From a virus: DNA of 39,773 bases. Position numbers and translations under genes: made by a program. Under the pieces are notes generated by a model that ran no database searches, had not been told where the DNA came from, and saw nothing but the letters and a program-made list of their open reading frames with translations. The stretch lies in the IMG/VR virus record IMGVR_UViG_3300025759_000227, positions 1 through 39,773 of that record. One strand, written 5' to 3'. Shown here piece after piece: positions 16,587-28,944 of this stretch (position 1 is its first letter; each line of letters begins with the position of its first letter).

Positions 16587-16639
16587 TAATCGCACATGTG
16601 AATAACTATCTCAAAATTTTTCTTTACTTATTTTTATGG

Positions 16640-16652
16640 GGTGTCAAACACC
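16640..16652. promoter_or_regulatory. palindromic operator candidate in the divergent control region
   Basis: GGTGT-CAA-ACACC is a perfect 5-bp inverted repeat. It contains the minus-strand hexamer TTGACA (16642-16647), a candidate -35 for the early minus operon, although no good -10 is seen. It lies just ahead of the RHH gene, so the RHH protein may bind here and control both itself and the early genes. Confidence 0.45.
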
Positions 16653-16656
16653 GATT

Positions 16657-16848
16657 ATGCCAAGTATACGTGCAATTGGAAAAAAGTGTCTTGCAGCCTG
16701 GCTAGATGATAGGTTGCTCAATCGCTGGAAGAAGCTCTGTCATGAGTTGGACATGACCCAGACTGATCGACTGACTCTTCTAATAAAAGAAGATGTTGAG
16801 AAAGCAGATGCGAAAGCATTTCGGAAACGTCAACGCCAAGCAAAGTAG
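16657..16848 (+). CDS. ribbon-helix-helix transcription regulator
   Basis: Start ATG 16657 gives 63 residues (MPSIRAIGKKCLAAWLDDRL). An earlier ATG at 16636 would place the operator palindrome inside the gene. A beta-strand (KCLAAWLDD) followed by two helices (RLLNRWKKLCHELDM, QTDRLTLLIKEDVEKA) is the RHH/Arc-MetJ fold, which binds DNA as a dimer through the strands. The C-terminus is basic. It sits between the divergent early operon and integrase, the place of a lysogeny switch regulator. No larger repressor (CI type) is seen, so this may be the main one. Confidence 0.7.
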   Translation: MPSIRAIGKKCLAAWLDDRLLNRWKKLCHELDMTQTDRLTLLIKEDVEKADAKAFRKRQRQAK

Positions 16849-16942: not shown

Positions 16943-16974
16943 TGGGACAATTACCGTCCCACCCTGTTTTTTTT
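16943..16974 (+). terminator. terminator after the RHH gene
   Basis: TGGGAC (16943-16948) and GTCCCA (16956-16961) form a 6-bp stem with a 7-base loop, followed five bases later by eight T (16967-16974). It resembles a rho-independent terminator that separates the RHH transcript from integrase. Confidence 0.5.
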
Positions 16975-17000: not shown

Positions 17001-17969
17001 ATGAGCGAACCTTATCCACAATGGCATTGTGGGGGTCTGGGGTTCAACTCCCCACGGCTCCACCATATTAATCAAGAGATTAATCTCTCTGATCAGGACC
17101 TGTCCGTTGTCGCGGACATGTGGTCTCATGGGCAATCTCTTGCTCAAGTTTGGTCAGATTGGCGAAGGTTGTATCTCGCTAGTGACCAATCGGTCAAGAC
17201 TTCTATCGATTTATTTTTGTCCCACCTCAAGCAGGCAGATTGCAGCCATCGCTATTGTCAGGAATTCAAGTGGGTTTTAGATCGGCTTGACCTCTTCATG
17301 GACACCTCTCTCCCCATCTGCCAGATCCCCACAAAAAGCTGGTGGGGTTCTCTAGATGCGATGGGTGCTGGAAACACTGCTAGGAGGAAAGTTTCAGTGT
17401 TCCTGAACTGGTGTTTGCAACAGGGTTTTATAAATGAAGCAGTCAAGATTCCAGGAAAGCCATCCTATCCAAAAGGCGACATTGAAATTCTCAGCAACAA
17501 GGAAGTTTCCTCGTTAATCAAAAGTTGTCCTTTAGATTTACTGGGACACATTTGGCTTTGCCTTTGCCTGGGACTCAGAGTTGCTGAAGCTGAGAAAGTC
17601 GATCACCTTTCGGTCAAAGGTAATTATTTAATCGTGGGAGCCAATGCAGCAAAGACCAAAACCAGACGTGTCCTGGACTTGCCTGAACACCATGGACACT
17701 ATGCACCATTAATCAGGCCCCAGGTGAACTTAAAAAAGAGGATGCTTTCTCTCAGGGAAGATTCAGGGATCACAAATTGGCCTCGCAATGTCATGAGGCA
17801 TACTGCTGCTTCTCATTGGCTTAATAGATTACAATCTGCAGAGGCTGCAGCCCTCCACCTTGGGAATTCTCCCGTCATGCTTCACAGGCATTATAAAGCC
17901 CTAGTGACAAAAGATGAATCAGAAGAGTTTTTTTCGATTTGGGACAAACATGTCAAAACAGCTAAGTGA
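17001..17969 (+). CDS. int: tyrosine-type integrase
   Basis: The frame from ATG 17001 gives 322 residues; an in-frame ATG at 17118 would give 283. The core-binding helical domain covers about 45-150. The catalytic domain has Arg in LGLRVAEAEKV (about 193), then NVMRHTAASHWL (R-H-x-x-x box), the LHLGNSPVMLHRHYKAL segment with the nucleophile Tyr, and a C-terminal helix. The first 22 codons are encoded by the putative attP (a tRNA/tmRNA 3' end), so the N-terminal ORF part is likely not conserved protein. Integrase inserts the phage at the host tRNA or tmRNA gene. The tandem palindrome lies at its 3' end. Confidence 0.88.
   Translation: MSEPYPQWHCGGLGFNSPRLHHINQEINLSDQDLSVVADMWSHGQSLAQVWSDWRRLYLASDQSVKTSIDLFLSHLKQADCSHRYCQEFKWVLDRLDLFMDTSLPICQIPTKSWWGSLDAMGAGNTARRKVSVFLNWCLQQGFINEAVKIPGKPSYPKGDIEILSNKEVSSLIKSCPLDLLGHIWLCLCLGLRVAEAEKVDHLSVKGNYLIVGANAAKTKTRRVLDLPEHHGHYAPLIRPQVNLKKRMLSLREDSGITNWPRNVMRHTAASHWLNRLQSAEAAALHLGNSPVMLHRHYKALVTKDESEEFFSIWDKHVKTAK
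17016..17032. repeat. inverted repeat beside the attP region
   Basis: CCACAATG and CATTGTGG flank a single G, a perfect 8-bp inverted repeat just upstream of the tRNA-like T-arm. It could be a core-type integrase site. Confidence 0.4.
17038..17065 (+). other. attP: attP core: 3' end of a tRNA or tmRNA gene
   Basis: T-stem TGGGG (17038-17042), loop TTCAACT (17043-17049), stem CCCCA (17050-17054), acceptor 3' strand CGGCTCC (17055-17061), then A and CCA (17062-17065). A T-arm plus acceptor strand with encoded CCA, right at an integrase gene, is the standard sign of a phage att site. The GGCTCCACCA end resembles tmRNA (ssrA); a tRNA is not excluded. The match probably extends some bases upstream. 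Confidence 0.7.
17075..17088. promoter_or_regulatory. 14-bp perfect palindrome next to attP
   Basis: AGAGATTAATCTCT lies ten bases after the tRNA-like end and reads the same on both strands. It may be a regulator or excisionase site controlling int. Confidence 0.4.
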
Positions 17970-22707: not shown

Positions 22708-22748
22708 CCCTCCCCTTGCTGTTGGATGCAAATAGGGGAGGGTTTTTT
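22708..22748 (+). terminator. rho-independent terminator of the plus-strand block
   Basis: CCCTCCCC (22708-22715) pairs with GGGGAGGG (22735-22742), with a TGC/GCA pair inside the loop, followed by six T (22743-22748). It ends plus-strand transcription where it meets the convergent internal-protein operon. Confidence 0.85.
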
Positions 22749-25700
22749 ATTTGCCCATCTTAGCCAGGTGTCGCTCTGCCTTTTCGATGGACTTGAACAC
22801 GGGACCAATGCGCTTTCCTTGTGTGCTGTAAATTCTGATACCAGCTCTAAGCGATGTCTGAACTGCACGGTCACCTCGCTCATTTGTGTATATTGCTCCA
22901 CCTCGTTTGTTAAGATCTCTCGTCTTGTTCAGCTTGACCTCAGGGCTGTAGCGAGGCATTCCCTGGCTTGAGATCTTCTTTTTAACACTGTCATTTAAGG
23001 CAACGTAATTTGCTTCCAGGTCATCGGAAATCATTTTTCTGACAGGTTTCAGGCGATTGCCGTTGCCGTCTTTGGTTTGTTTCCAGATTTTGAGTTTTGG
23101 AAGCTTGTCATCGTAAAAGCCTCTCATGCCTTTACCGCCCAGACGAAGGTTCTCACCTTCAAGGACGGCATTTCTCATACCCTCCCCTGAACTCTCCATG
23201 TTGTCCAATGCACGTTGCGTTAGTTCTTTCCCTATGTAGTCAGGCAACTTCTCTTTTGATATGTTTGTTTCAACGGTTTTGAATACGTCCTCGTTCGGCA
23301 TTCTCACCATCAGTTCATAGCTGCCTTCTCCGTAATCAATAACGTCAATACCTGTTACTTTATCACCAAGCTGATACCTAGCATTTTGGGTGTCACCTCT
23401 CGTCCAGGCAATGGCGTCATAACCTTCGTCTGCTGCGAGCTTGAGCATTCGCTTCATGCTAAACTCAGGCCATGATTTCTTGAAGGGTGCGTTGGGAGTT
23501 TCGCCCATGGTGTCTAGAGTATTCTCCAGTTCCTCCATGCGGTTGATTTTTGCTGTGAGTTCCCTGCCCTCTTCGAGCATCTTCTGGTAAGTTGACTTAT
23601 GCTTCTCCATTAGCCTTGCCTTCGCTTTGATTTCCCTTTCATTCTCGGGTTGCCAGGCTAATGCAAGGTCTTGGTTCTTCTCGAAATCTACAAGCGACTC
23701 ACCCCACCGCTTGTAGATTTGCCTTGGGTCACCTTTCTGATAATAATCATTATACTCTCTTATAAGGTTCTTGCGATCCTTGTGATAGTAACCCTCCTTT
23801 CTCCCTTCCTGGTGCCAGTCCGATTGTATTTCCTCCAAGAACAGTATCTTTTCGCCATCTGGACCAATACGGTCATTGTGACGAACGTGAGAAACGATGT
23901 TGCTTTGATCGAAATGGGAGGAATCGTAAGGACCAAAACGACTTGCCTGAGCGTCAGGGTGGACTGGGTGCATTAGGGGAGGTGAGTTGTCAACTTTTGG
24001 AAGCGTTAACAGTCTCTCAGTATATGTGTCTGGTTCGGCACCTGGTTCTGTATAACTAGAATACCTGGTGTAATCAGTCGTTTCAGGTAAGTTTTCATTG
24101 AGATCTACACGGTATCTTCCATCAAAATCCTCTTCTAGCATGGTGGATAAAGCGTCTTCTGCCATTGCTTTATCTGTGAAAGTAGAATTAATCCGTGCCA
24201 AATCGTAAGGCTTTATGACATACTCATCAAGGCGATTTGGGTCGAAATCGAAGTTTCTTTTTTCACTTTCACTTAGATTCTTAACTAACTGGATCTCATA
24301 ATTGCTCGCCTCTTCCTTCACCCATTCATTAAGGATTTCATCCTTAGCCATTAAAGCTTCCTCAGGAGTGTCGAAAGGACCCTGAGTGGTAGAGTTGTCT
24401 AGCCTTTCAGTGTCAACAATCCAGTAAGATGATGCTCCATCATTTGGAGCAAGAGCAGTCACCTTCGCCTTGCTTACCTCAACCATCTCAATCTGGTTAG
24501 CTTTAATAAAGTCCAGAACCTCCTCCTTGTTCACCCTCGGGTTGTCTTTGAGGAATGTGTCCAGCCCTATGTCCTCGATTTCCTCTGCCTTGACTCCGGC
24601 CTTTTCCATGGCTTTCAGGAATTGCTGTCCAGTGCCTCTCTTTTGCTGCATTCCCTCAATGGCTTCTTGAGCTTTTGAATACATACCCAGGGAGTCGAGT
24701 TCTCGTTGGGGGGAGAAGCGGAAGCTATCAGATTGTGACCTGTATTTTTTTCGTTCGTCTCTCGCTCCCCTAGCCTTATCACCTCTTTGGTGCTTCTCGT
24801 CTAGAGCAACCTGTCTTGCAGCCTCATCTTGCCAAGTCAGTCTCTGGGTTCCGTTTCTGTAAACATTTCGGCCTTTCCTTCTAGTAGCTTTACCTTTCTC
24901 AATGGGTTGCACTCCAGATGAAGAAATGACTCTCAAGCTGAAAGTGTGCTGTTGTTTATCAGCACCGTATGAGTCATTCAGAACTTCAGCAACGATTTCC
25001 CTGTCCCCCAAGTATGAAGGTTTTTTCCATGAGCCACCGAAAACTCCTTCTGTGAATTTTATGGTGTCACCTTTGGCAACGTCTCCAGTTGCAGTTTGCC
25101 AAGAATCAGGTATGGAGGGAGCAGAGTTTTTAAGGGGACGGGATGGGGAGAAGCGGACTTCCCCACTGGCAAGCTTGTCTAGCACAACTCCTGCCCCCAT
25201 GAGAACAGCAGAATTCGGTTTACCCGATTTAGTTGCTACATCTTTCCGAGAAGTGAGGTTGGTCACTTCTGTGAACTCCTTAAGAAATGCTTTCTCTTTT
25301 AATCCTACAAAGTATGGGTAGTTCTCGTTTAGTTCCGGTCTATACTCTGGTGATTTACCTCCATACTCAGCAATAGCCAGGAGAGTCCCTGGACCAATGC
25401 CCTCGTAGGCAGGTTCTCTTAGTTCATTGGCTACAGTCTCAAGATCCATACCCAGTTCCTTAAGCCTGCTTTGTTTTATTGGAAGGGTTTTACCGTCAAG
25501 CTTAGTGTAAATTACAGGTGCTGCCTTCCATGGAATCTCTTCAAACACTTTGGCAAAATCCTTGTAAGTCTTTATGCCAGCAATGGTGGACATTTGCTGC
25601 TTTGTGAGTGGAGACTTCTCTGCTTTGGAGTTAATGATCCTATTCATTGCCTCCTTGATATGCTTGTTAGCCTCCCTTGCTGTTACCTTACCTGTTTCAA

Positions 25701-28700
25701 CAAGTTCCTCCCACTTCAGTCCATAATACCTTCGAGCAAGCTTACTGTTCAAATGGTTGTTGGGCTTCATGGACGTGATACCCACTAACGGGAACCCGTC
25801 CCTGCGAAGGCGAGTGATAAAAGCCTTTGCTGAGTTTATATTAGTAAAACCCCATCCATCATATAATGCTAAATGTCCTGGTCCACCTCGGAACTGAACA
25901 GCTACACCGTTAGCATTCCGGTCCCTTGCTCCAGAGGAGTCAGTAGTGAGGACTTGGATCTTTTTGTTGTTTAAGTCTCTCAGGTCTATGTTGGGATTGT
26001 CTGGGGATGGGCTGAATCTAGCTAAGTCTGCTGGCTTCAGAACTGTTGTCTGTCCTGGTTTAAAAGTTCTGGGTCTGAAGTTAACCCCTGCTCGATTGTA
26101 AGCGTCTTCCGAGAAGTTGACCTTGGTATCCCTGGTTGTCATCTGGACAATGCGATCCAGTCTGAAATCTCGCCAGGGAAAGTTTTTCTCTACCTCGTTA
26201 AACTTAGTGCCTTCAGGGACGAGGATATTGTTTTTCTGATTCCTGACCCTAAGGACCTTATTCAGTATATCTCTCTTCTTTGCCGATCCCAGGACCTCTG
26301 CTGTTGGTGTTTGACCAGAGGACAATGCATCCAGGTAAGTCAGGAGATCTCGTTGCATCTCCTCTATGTTGCTAAATTCTTTCTGGGTCTCTGGGTTTGC
26401 AAACTCTTTGGCTACTCTTTGATCCAAGAGCGTCTTGTCTGCAACCTTAACTCGCATGGTTCCTGTCTCAGGGGACACAATGAAATTGTAAAGAATCGCA
26501 TCTCGGTTGCTCAAAGGCAGATTACGGTATCGAGTCCCTTTTTTTACCTTCGTGGTAGCTGCAGCATACAAAACATTCATCAACCCACTGTCATCTGGCA
26601 TCTCCTTGATCTTCTCCAAGGCTTTTCGGAGGGTTCCAGTAATTGCATCTGAAGCCAAGAGGGCATCGATCTGTTTTCTGCTGAAACGTAGGCCTGAGTA
26701 GTTGCCTCTTTCATCTCGGATCAATCCTCCCGTGTCATCTACTGAATCCAAAACCTTAGCCATGGTCCTGGTTCGTTCTGCTTCGATCTTCTTGACCTGA
26801 GCAGCACTCTTAATCATCTCTCTCTTACCAGTGGCTGTTACCCTGGCAGCACCCATATCGACAAGTTCCTGGAAGATGGCATCATCCTTCAAGTCAAAGT
26901 CACTGTAGACTCGGACAGGAGTATCTACGGAAAGGTTGATGTTTCTCTTGGACCTTCTCCTTGCTCTGACCAAATCGTCAATGGATCTGTTGATCGCTTT
27001 TGACTGCTTGATAGGGGTGTCGAAAATGTCGCTTTTAAAAGTGTTGTGAACCCTGTCAAGCTTGCCTGCTACGAATCGATCAGTGATACCTCGGATAGCT
27101 TCCCTGATGGGGTTGCCTTTAAATAAATAATTACTGTCTTTGCCTTTAATGTAATTGGCGAAGTATTCAGCACCGATCTCTTCCAGGATTGAATTAAATT
27201 TCTTGTCTCGATCTGATTTGCCTGGAGTGTCATCAGTCACCAGAAGCTTGCCTGACTTTTCATAGTCATTGATCAGCGTGTCGATCTCCTGATCTTTGTA
27301 AAGCTTGCCTACCTGATCCTTGATGCGCTGAACCATGACTTCAAAGCCATCAATTCTCGCAATAGCATGGAAGGTTTCATGAGCTAACGTTCGTAGGTCT
27401 GAATTGGTGTTTAGGTGGATGACAGGTCTGCCACCTTCTTGAGTGTAAGCACCTCCACCACCTTTGAGGGTGATGTCTTTTCCCTGGGCATCCTGACCTA
27501 TAACAGTTTCATCAGTCCCGTATCGAATGATGGGTTCTGCTTCAGAAGTTGAGCCAAGTATGACCTGCTCCAGATCCATTGCTCGGATCAAGTCATCTCT
27601 GTTTGTGTAGCGTCCCAGGGAAGCCCTGTCTTCATCGCTTTTACTTTCGAGCCATGTGACTAGATCACTGTCTTGAGCTGCCCTCTTTGCTGCTCCTGTT
27701 GCTCCTTCAACAAACCTCCCCATGGTTCCACCGAATGCACCCATGGCACCACCAGAACCAATACCCTGAGCTAACCCCTCAACCCCTCCTGTTGCCAGAC
27801 CTATGCCTGCACCAATACCTACACCTGTCACTGCACCTGATGCAGCCCTGCCAGCATAGTTGGTGGGAGTGTCCAGGAACTTGAGCTTACCAGCAAGGTA
27901 GCCAGCAGCAGTGTCTGGTGAGTTGAGTGCCATCCTTGCAAGGCCACCAGATCTGGTAGGGTTGACCTTCATGGCGTCCCCGAAATTACGTAGCAATCCA
28001 CCAGCAACTTCCATTGCTGCAGGAACACCAGCAACAGCCAGAGTTCCCATGCCTGCAGTGCCAAGGTCCAAGGCTCCTACGCCAACTGCAGCACCCACTC
28101 CCCCAGGGACTGCATACCTGCCAAGGCCACCGCTTGCTTCGTCAACTTTTGAAGCCAGGTTGCCCACGGCATCAGTTGCACTGGACCGCAAGTCACTGAG
28201 TCTCCTTCCACCAGCAGACATCATATCGCCTGCAGCGGATACTGCTCCTCCGGTCACTCTACCTGTTGTCTTGGCAATCGCAGTTCCTACTTTGGAGCCA
28301 GGTATAAGTAAGCTTGGATCTGCAAACTCACCAAGGAATTCTGCTGCACCTTGGTTGAATTTCTCAGGGTCAATCTTTGCTCCATTGGCCCCTGCCCATT
28401 CCATGTACTCATTCCAGGCAGATTTATCACCTCGATCAATTTTGGACCTGACGTTCTGCAGTTCTTTGACCTTCAGAAAACGTCTGTATTGGTTTTCTTT
28501 TTCGTCATCAGTCCTACCACCAAACCCTTCGATTTTAGACATGAGGTAACCTTGAGCCATACGTCCCATGGTTTCAGTGTCGTAAGTCCCTCTGCCAACT
28601 CCTTCTGCCAGAGTTCTCGCAGAAACTCCCATCTCAAGAGGGTTTGCGAATGTCTTGAGGAACTCTGGTAGATTGGTAAGAAGTCTTCCTGCAGTGGAAG

Positions 28701-28944
28701 TGAATGCGTCTGCTGCCATTCCAGCAAACCGTCCTGCAGTCATATCGGGCCTTGCCTGCAGATACCTCTCATGATCCTCCTTGGAAAGAGATGCTGCAGG
28801 AGTGTCAGGGTTCTCAAATCGAGCTACCAGCTTTTCGTCTGGCTCGGGATAGTCGCGTGTAATGATTTCGTCAATCCTGCTGTCCGACATATCGTCCGGG
28901 AATTGCAGGTTTACATCATAATCTTGCAGGTAGATGTTTTGCAT
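22747..28944 (-). CDS. giant polyvalent internal virion protein with metallopeptidase motif
   Basis: The 2065-residue protein has Gly/Ala-rich hydrophobic segments (about 278-320 and 370-408), fit for membrane insertion. An HExxH zincin motif LAHETFHAIA (His522-Glu-Thr-Phe-His526) follows, then several LPD-type segments. These include a region reading FLEEIQSDWHQEGRKEGY and, near the C-terminus, FKKSWPEFSMKRMLKLAADE then YDAIAWTRGD. Both are typical of large polyvalent proteins that are injected with phage DNA. Likely roles are a channel into the cell plus effector or protease action early in infection. It is the last gene of the internal-protein operon and shares one base with the gene before it. 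Confidence 0.8.
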   Translation of the reverse strand: MQNIYLQDYDVNLQFPDDMSDSRIDEIITRDYPEPDEKLVARFENPDTPAASLSKEDHERYLQARPDMTAGRFAGMAADAFTSTAGRLLTNLPEFLKTFANPLEMGVSARTLAEGVGRGTYDTETMGRMAQGYLMSKIEGFGGRTDDEKENQYRRFLKVKELQNVRSKIDRGDKSAWNEYMEWAGANGAKIDPEKFNQGAAEFLGEFADPSLLIPGSKVGTAIAKTTGRVTGGAVSAAGDMMSAGGRRLSDLRSSATDAVGNLASKVDEASGGLGRYAVPGGVGAAVGVGALDLGTAGMGTLAVAGVPAAMEVAGGLLRNFGDAMKVNPTRSGGLARMALNSPDTAAGYLAGKLKFLDTPTNYAGRAASGAVTGVGIGAGIGLATGGVEGLAQGIGSGGAMGAFGGTMGRFVEGATGAAKRAAQDSDLVTWLESKSDEDRASLGRYTNRDDLIRAMDLEQVILGSTSEAEPIIRYGTDETVIGQDAQGKDITLKGGGGAYTQEGGRPVIHLNTNSDLRTLAHETFHAIARIDGFEVMVQRIKDQVGKLYKDQEIDTLINDYEKSGKLLVTDDTPGKSDRDKKFNSILEEIGAEYFANYIKGKDSNYLFKGNPIREAIRGITDRFVAGKLDRVHNTFKSDIFDTPIKQSKAINRSIDDLVRARRRSKRNINLSVDTPVRVYSDFDLKDDAIFQELVDMGAARVTATGKREMIKSAAQVKKIEAERTRTMAKVLDSVDDTGGLIRDERGNYSGLRFSRKQIDALLASDAITGTLRKALEKIKEMPDDSGLMNVLYAAATTKVKKGTRYRNLPLSNRDAILYNFIVSPETGTMRVKVADKTLLDQRVAKEFANPETQKEFSNIEEMQRDLLTYLDALSSGQTPTAEVLGSAKKRDILNKVLRVRNQKNNILVPEGTKFNEVEKNFPWRDFRLDRIVQMTTRDTKVNFSEDAYNRAGVNFRPRTFKPGQTTVLKPADLARFSPSPDNPNIDLRDLNNKKIQVLTTDSSGARDRNANGVAVQFRGGPGHLALYDGWGFTNINSAKAFITRLRRDGFPLVGITSMKPNNHLNSKLARRYYGLKWEELVETGKVTAREANKHIKEAMNRIINSKAEKSPLTKQQMSTIAGIKTYKDFAKVFEEIPWKAAPVIYTKLDGKTLPIKQSRLKELGMDLETVANELREPAYEGIGPGTLLAIAEYGGKSPEYRPELNENYPYFVGLKEKAFLKEFTEVTNLTSRKDVATKSGKPNSAVLMGAGVVLDKLASGEVRFSPSRPLKNSAPSIPDSWQTATGDVAKGDTIKFTEGVFGGSWKKPSYLGDREIVAEVLNDSYGADKQQHTFSLRVISSSGVQPIEKGKATRRKGRNVYRNGTQRLTWQDEAARQVALDEKHQRGDKARGARDERKKYRSQSDSFRFSPQRELDSLGMYSKAQEAIEGMQQKRGTGQQFLKAMEKAGVKAEEIEDIGLDTFLKDNPRVNKEEVLDFIKANQIEMVEVSKAKVTALAPNDGASSYWIVDTERLDNSTTQGPFDTPEEALMAKDEILNEWVKEEASNYEIQLVKNLSESEKRNFDFDPNRLDEYVIKPYDLARINSTFTDKAMAEDALSTMLEEDFDGRYRVDLNENLPETTDYTRYSSYTEPGAEPDTYTERLLTLPKVDNSPPLMHPVHPDAQASRFGPYDSSHFDQSNIVSHVRHNDRIGPDGEKILFLEEIQSDWHQEGRKEGYYHKDRKNLIREYNDYYQKGDPRQIYKRWGESLVDFEKNQDLALAWQPENEREIKAKARLMEKHKSTYQKMLEEGRELTAKINRMEELENTLDTMGETPNAPFKKSWPEFSMKRMLKLAADEGYDAIAWTRGDTQNARYQLGDKVTGIDVIDYGEGSYELMVRMPNEDVFKTVETNISKEKLPDYIGKELTQRALDNMESSGEGMRNAVLEGENLRLGGKGMRGFYDDKLPKLKIWKQTKDGNGNRLKPVRKMISDDLEANYVALNDSVKKKISSQGMPRYSPEVKLNKTRDLNKRGGAIYTNERGDRAVQTSLRAGIRIYSTQGKRIGPVFKSIEKAERHLAKMGK

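Follow-up and report, generated by a model that had tools for sequence, protein, structure and literature searches.

A putative tRNA-Ala(GGC)-derived attachment site in the integrase leader of environmental tailed phages and its probable effect on integrase synthesis

Attachment sites overlapping integrase genes

Self-disrupting or 'suicidal' integrases have been found exclusively in archaea, according to a 2021 review (PMC8371274; the literature compared here consists of open-licence papers). In these SSV-type integrases, e.g. those of SSV1, pTN3 and pT26-2, a tRNA-derived attP lies inside the int gene, and integration splits an N-terminal part with the start codon from the catalytic part. 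In the integration-dependent immunity of mycobacteriophage BPs, attP is located in the repressor gene and the repressor loses its C-terminus (PMC4557955). For intS of KplE1/HK620, a tRNA-linked attP lies just upstream of int and attL overlaps with the promoter of int, not with its reading frame, so that int keeps its start codon (PMC2951348), and in the Dehalococcoides ssrA islands attL overlaps the 3' end of the serine recombinase gene dsiB on the complementary strand (PMC3146451).

The locus described here belongs to a 39.8-kb virus record from IMG/VR without terminal repeats (the whole stretch of 39,773 nucleotides is referred to as the window), which has the look of a tailed phage with its matches to a major head protein, DnaB helicase, an exonuclease and RusA. 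Its int gene is laid out as follows, with groups A-D referring to relatives introduced below.

17001..17969, + strand: int, a tyrosine-recombinase integrase ORF of 322 aa (phrog_1 match, catalytic residues, pN/pS)
17001..17015, + strand: int start codon and the 12 nt before the core, which would go to attR on integration
17016..17065, + strand: putative attP core, tRNA-Ala(GGC) positions 27-76 (sequence; ARAGORN on the rebuilt tRNA)
17066..17084, + strand: linker from the CCA to the first conserved Int residues, variable as protein and devoid of an in-frame start
17085..17117, + strand: codons 29-39 (LSDQDLSVVAD), conserved at the protein level and upstream of ATG 17118
17118..17120, + strand: codon 40, ATG, the next in-frame start

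As in the SSV-type systems, a tRNA-derived attP thus lies inside the int coding sequence, and integration would separate the start codon from the body of the gene. In contrast to them, only a leader of no more than 22 codons, ending at the crossover, and not a folded domain would be lost, and the relatives are of the bacterial, tailed-phage type with a phrog_1 match; a match to the archaeal Phage_integr_3 superfamily (PF16795) was found in none of seven members. Lacking this family match and losing only its leader, the present case works like an SSV-type integrase but is not a member of that type. The original prediction had pointed to mycobacteriophage switches instead, a likeness that holds in so far as attP lies inside a regulatory or integration gene and integration alters the product; the ORF in the window, however, is an integrase and not a repressor, it is the start that would be lost, and the archaeal integrases are the better analogue. 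With KplE1/HK620 the locus has in common that integration would alter what precedes int, and with dsiB that an att site of RNA-gene origin coincides with part of a bacterial integrase ORF, although the integrase here is a tyrosine recombinase and the overlap is at the 5' end of its ORF. Overall, we consider it likely that a tRNA-Ala(GGC)-derived attP has been built into the int leader and that integration limits the phage's own Int synthesis.

The assignment of int itself relies on phrog_1, which was matched by all seven homologues tested (best E 1.9e-10), and on R193, K218, R266 and Y298, i.e. catalytic residues that are invariant in a 12-row homologue alignment. Because N263 and N289 stand where box II and box III would have their histidines and no Pfam match was found, int is, as judged by its sequence, a divergent tyrosine recombinase (phage integrase). 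A profile search of int against the PDB found nothing, relatives of int were absent from plasmids and represented by a single weak match in phage records, and a degenerate DNA scan for a C-terminal int motif returned zero matches, though L002 should fit this motif. The AlphaFold model (mean pLDDT 39.7) is too poor for use. The virus family is known solely from environmental sequence, with hosts that are apparently bacteria: capsid relatives of the window are bacterial phages (24-33% identity), and together with the Shine-Dalgarno sequences and the encoded CCA they point to a bacterial host.

tRNA identity of the attP core

The core consists of 50 nt, corresponding to the 3' two thirds of a tRNA-Ala(GGC) gene, which fill int codons 6-22. 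It reads CCACA-ATGGCAT-TGTGG / GGGTC / TGGGG-TTCAACT-CCCCA / CGGCTCC / A / CCA, with these parts assigned from the sequence:

17016-17032, + strand: anticodon arm, with the anticodon GGC at 17023-17025
17033-17037, + strand: variable loop
17038-17054, + strand: T-arm
17055-17061, + strand: acceptor strand
17062-17065, + strand: A73 and CCA

As expected for a tRNA-type attP, an exact tRNA 3' part thus adjoins int and can rebuild a tRNA: when a generic tRNA-Ala 5' half was joined to the phage fragment of the window or of three relatives, ARAGORN called tRNA-Ala(ggc). The 17-nt anticodon arm also occurs in genuine tRNA-Ala(ggc) genes of five other contigs (L015, L020, L024, L025, L030). Among the relatives, the length from anticodon arm to CCA is constant, and differences within the core are tRNA-like rather than codon-like (CGGCTCC in the window vs CGACTCC in L002; AACT vs AAAT in the T-loop). 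By these measures the tRNA-like match at 17016-17065 is beyond chance.

The overlap of T-arm, acceptor strand and CCA (17038-17065) with int codons 13-22 noted in the original prediction agrees with the coordinates, but its alternative naming of the RNA as tmRNA has to be given up. A tmRNA (ssrA) identity is ruled out by what lies upstream of the T-arm, i.e. a tRNA anticodon arm with anticodon GGC; an Rfam tmRNA match at 17031-17065 (22.3 bits, E 2.9e-5) stays below the 47-bit cut-off and is explained by T-arm and acceptor alone resembling each other in both RNAs. The inverted repeat CCACAATG-G-CATTGTGG at 17016-17032, thought to flank the site, was correctly located; it is the anticodon stem-loop and therefore part of the site.

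Two Patescibacteria contigs were set aside as host evidence, because they share the 26 nt of T-arm and acceptor but in a different tRNA-like RNA, for which neither ARAGORN nor Rfam called a tRNA. In L003 (4400-4425) the last 26 nt of this element equal the phage fragment, and the same is true in L004 (3180-3251), where the element extends over about 70 nt (GGGGCCGGTGG...CTCCACCA).

Start of int and translation in three frames

In twelve contigs from IMG/VR, a homologous integrase has this tRNA-Ala fragment in its leader (L002, L021, L033, L034, L017/L036, L018/L037, L027/L035, L028/L038, L042, L045, L046 and L050, with L021 cut off after codon 28 and L046 near-identical to L045). Group A, which includes the window, reads the fragment as QWHCGGLGF.SPRLHH; group B, in phase 1, reads it as MALWGSGVRLPSAPP, and groups C and D, in phase 2, as HNGIVGVRGSTPLGST. 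Integrases approximately 65-73% identical to that of the window include readers of the fragment in the other two frames. Whichever of the three frames is used, all 12 contigs have a start just upstream of the fragment: in group A the distance from start to core is 15, 15, 15, 12 or 6 nt, always in frame, and groups B, C and D have AGGAGG and then a TTG or ATG no more than 5 nt from the core. On an int tree built without the leader, parsimony gives three frame switches, an approximate hand count given the weak deep branches. The tRNA sequence thus yields protein in three different frames while the recombinase stays intact.

All forward frames of the tRNA fragment are free of stops, so openness alone proves nothing; an upstream start is argued instead from the start codons, the Shine-Dalgarno sequences and a codon-level test. 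Between the window and L033, codons 29-39 show a pS of 0.85 and a pN of 0.21, i.e. a pN/pS of 0.25, to be compared with 0.23 for int codons 61-322. These codons are conserved as protein and therefore translated. Because they are, and because group A (window, L002, L033, L034) lacks an in-frame ATG, GTG or TTG between codons 1 and 40, ATG 17001 is the supported int start in the circular phage form, from which a non-canonical start would be the sole escape. The originally predicted location of attP within the 5' end of int, with the start upstream, is thereby borne out both by homologues in all three frames and by the codon-level test.

The locus could also be that of a conventional tRNA integrator, with an essential Int beginning at about codon 36-40, a dispensable upstream frame and, as with KplE1 intS, an attL-overlapping or tRNA-derived promoter driving int. 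Integration would then alter promoter and leader while Int function stayed the same. Such attL sites overlapping the int promoter are widespread in tRNA-inserted prophages (PMC2951348), and the window and most of its relatives have ATG at codon 40 (groups A and C as well as the majority of group D). It is GTC, however, in group B (L017, L027) and ATT in L050, so this codon, proposed in the original prediction as an internal start, is not conserved. Together with the conservation of codons 29-39 this rules out ATG 17118 as the sole start, and the strong Shine-Dalgarno sequence upstream of the core in groups B-D also argues against an Int that begins only behind the tRNA part. We therefore regard this explanation as unlikely.

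It is also supported by L048, a full homologue with a sister integrase (59% across the C-terminal part), whose fragment ends GGTTCGAATCCTTTTAGCCGCACCA. By its long variable arm and TTGAGGT loop, the attP of L048 (3430-3600) looks like the 3' part of a tRNA-Leu(GAG), although no tool called a tRNA in this fragment. Because the attP contains an in-frame TAA, with no start before GTG 3566/3578, Int of L048 must begin downstream, at GTG 3566 or 3578; this would amount to an apparent target switch in which the int start was relocated downstream of the site. The case suggests that an Int without its first 35-39 residues may work, and this hint is the chief reason for caution in considering an integrated int dead.

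A tRNA-Ala site does not by itself force the overlap, since in L023 and L051 a tRNA-Ala fragment of this kind lies next to other integrases, which start downstream of the CCA. Two further candidates were rejected: the apparent similarity of L011 is a chance reading through an unrelated tRNA, and Pseudomonas phage MR13 has a tRNA-like match beneath an annotated 'integrase' of 65 aa, but its long integrase ORF ends before the site.

Consequences of integration and sequences around the site

In the circular phage, as sequence evolution shows, int is translated from ATG 17001 straight through the tRNA fragment into the recombinase. From the identity of the core we infer recombination at a tRNA-Ala(GGC) site. 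Since tRNA and int run in the same direction, the tRNA would be rebuilt at attL with the int body directly behind it, while the start codon would stay behind at attR, the far end of the prophage, together with the ribosome-binding region and the region upstream of it. By geometry this would apply to any crossover within 17016-17065, from which the predicted removal of ATG 17001 to the other prophage end also follows. A further conserved gene would part from int in the same process:

16636..16848, + strand: small conserved ORF of 70 aa upstream of attP, likewise found in group D

Host tRNA transcripts are processed at the CCA during maturation, and such processing would leave the group A int RNA without a canonical start before codon 40. 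Int would be made on infection, with the full-length form largely shut off after integration, and excision would need Int in trans and/or weak internal initiation on tRNA read-through transcripts. The block could be leaky in groups B, C and D, whose tRNA part holds in-frame ATG, TTG or GTG codons; these would survive at attL. A stricter version, in which self-disarming of the integrase arose independently in a lineage of bacterial phages, with Int synthesis abolished and exit requiring the Int of a related phage, is conceivable but more tentative. A bacterial phage clade with its int start beyond attP, preserved through three frame changes, would represent an independent origin of integration-dependent control on int itself, and the persistence of one-way integration modules as well as the induction of lysogens of such uncultured phages would become testable.

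That attP and int are merely packed together without regulatory effect, with Int from the time of infection being enough and excision proceeding via starts inside the tRNA part, appears improbable. The in-frame start codons within the fragment in groups B-D would fit this explanation, but group A including the window has none, and the upstream start has been preserved through all three frame switches. It is very unlikely that the tRNA piece is a relic or was acquired and does not work as attP, with integration elsewhere or the temperate state lost. Neither a lysogen nor the attL/attR of an integrated copy turned up in the fragment-bearing IMG/VR contigs, the collections searched, and contigs with the anticodon arm likewise showed no attL for this clade, but constant core length and tRNA-like variation in all relatives speak against decay, and L048 has a different tRNA 3' end in the same place, as a target switch predicts.

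Two sequences close to the site stand out:

16943..16961, + strand: dyad or hairpin TGGGACA...CCGTCCCA, then a T-run, just upstream of int
17075..17088, + strand: 14-bp palindrome AGAGATTAATCTCT (sequence)

The palindrome had been proposed to flank the site together with the inverted repeat. It is shared only by the window and its closest relatives L002 and L021, whereas L033 and L034 lack it, and, judging from this distribution, is a local feature. The dyad, which would end up at attR, is a possible operator of int or a terminator. In groups A, B and C (window, L002, L034, L036, L038), int is preceded at a short distance by a conserved dyad of the GGACA-N5-TGTCC type, and in group A the T-run behind it resembles that of a terminator.

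Several minor observations concern other parts of these phages. In L023, an unrelated phage contig, a type II hammerhead ribozyme scoring above the Rfam gathering score lies at 2070-2133, approximately 630 nt upstream of the tRNA-Ala attP. Among the leftward structural genes of the window, positions 22747-28944 contain an ORF of 2065 aa without a PHROG match. Finally, gene junctions on either strand of the window repeatedly contain a motif (TGA)CTAACACC(T) (+ strand: 18138, 18376, 18716, 18983, 19587 and 22600; - strand: 16899, 16582, 12679, 10450 and 6224), which is also present in L009, L038 and L042. Its TGA is often the stop codon of an ORF, shortly before the next start, and the motif may mark gene starts or act as a transcription signal in this phage group.
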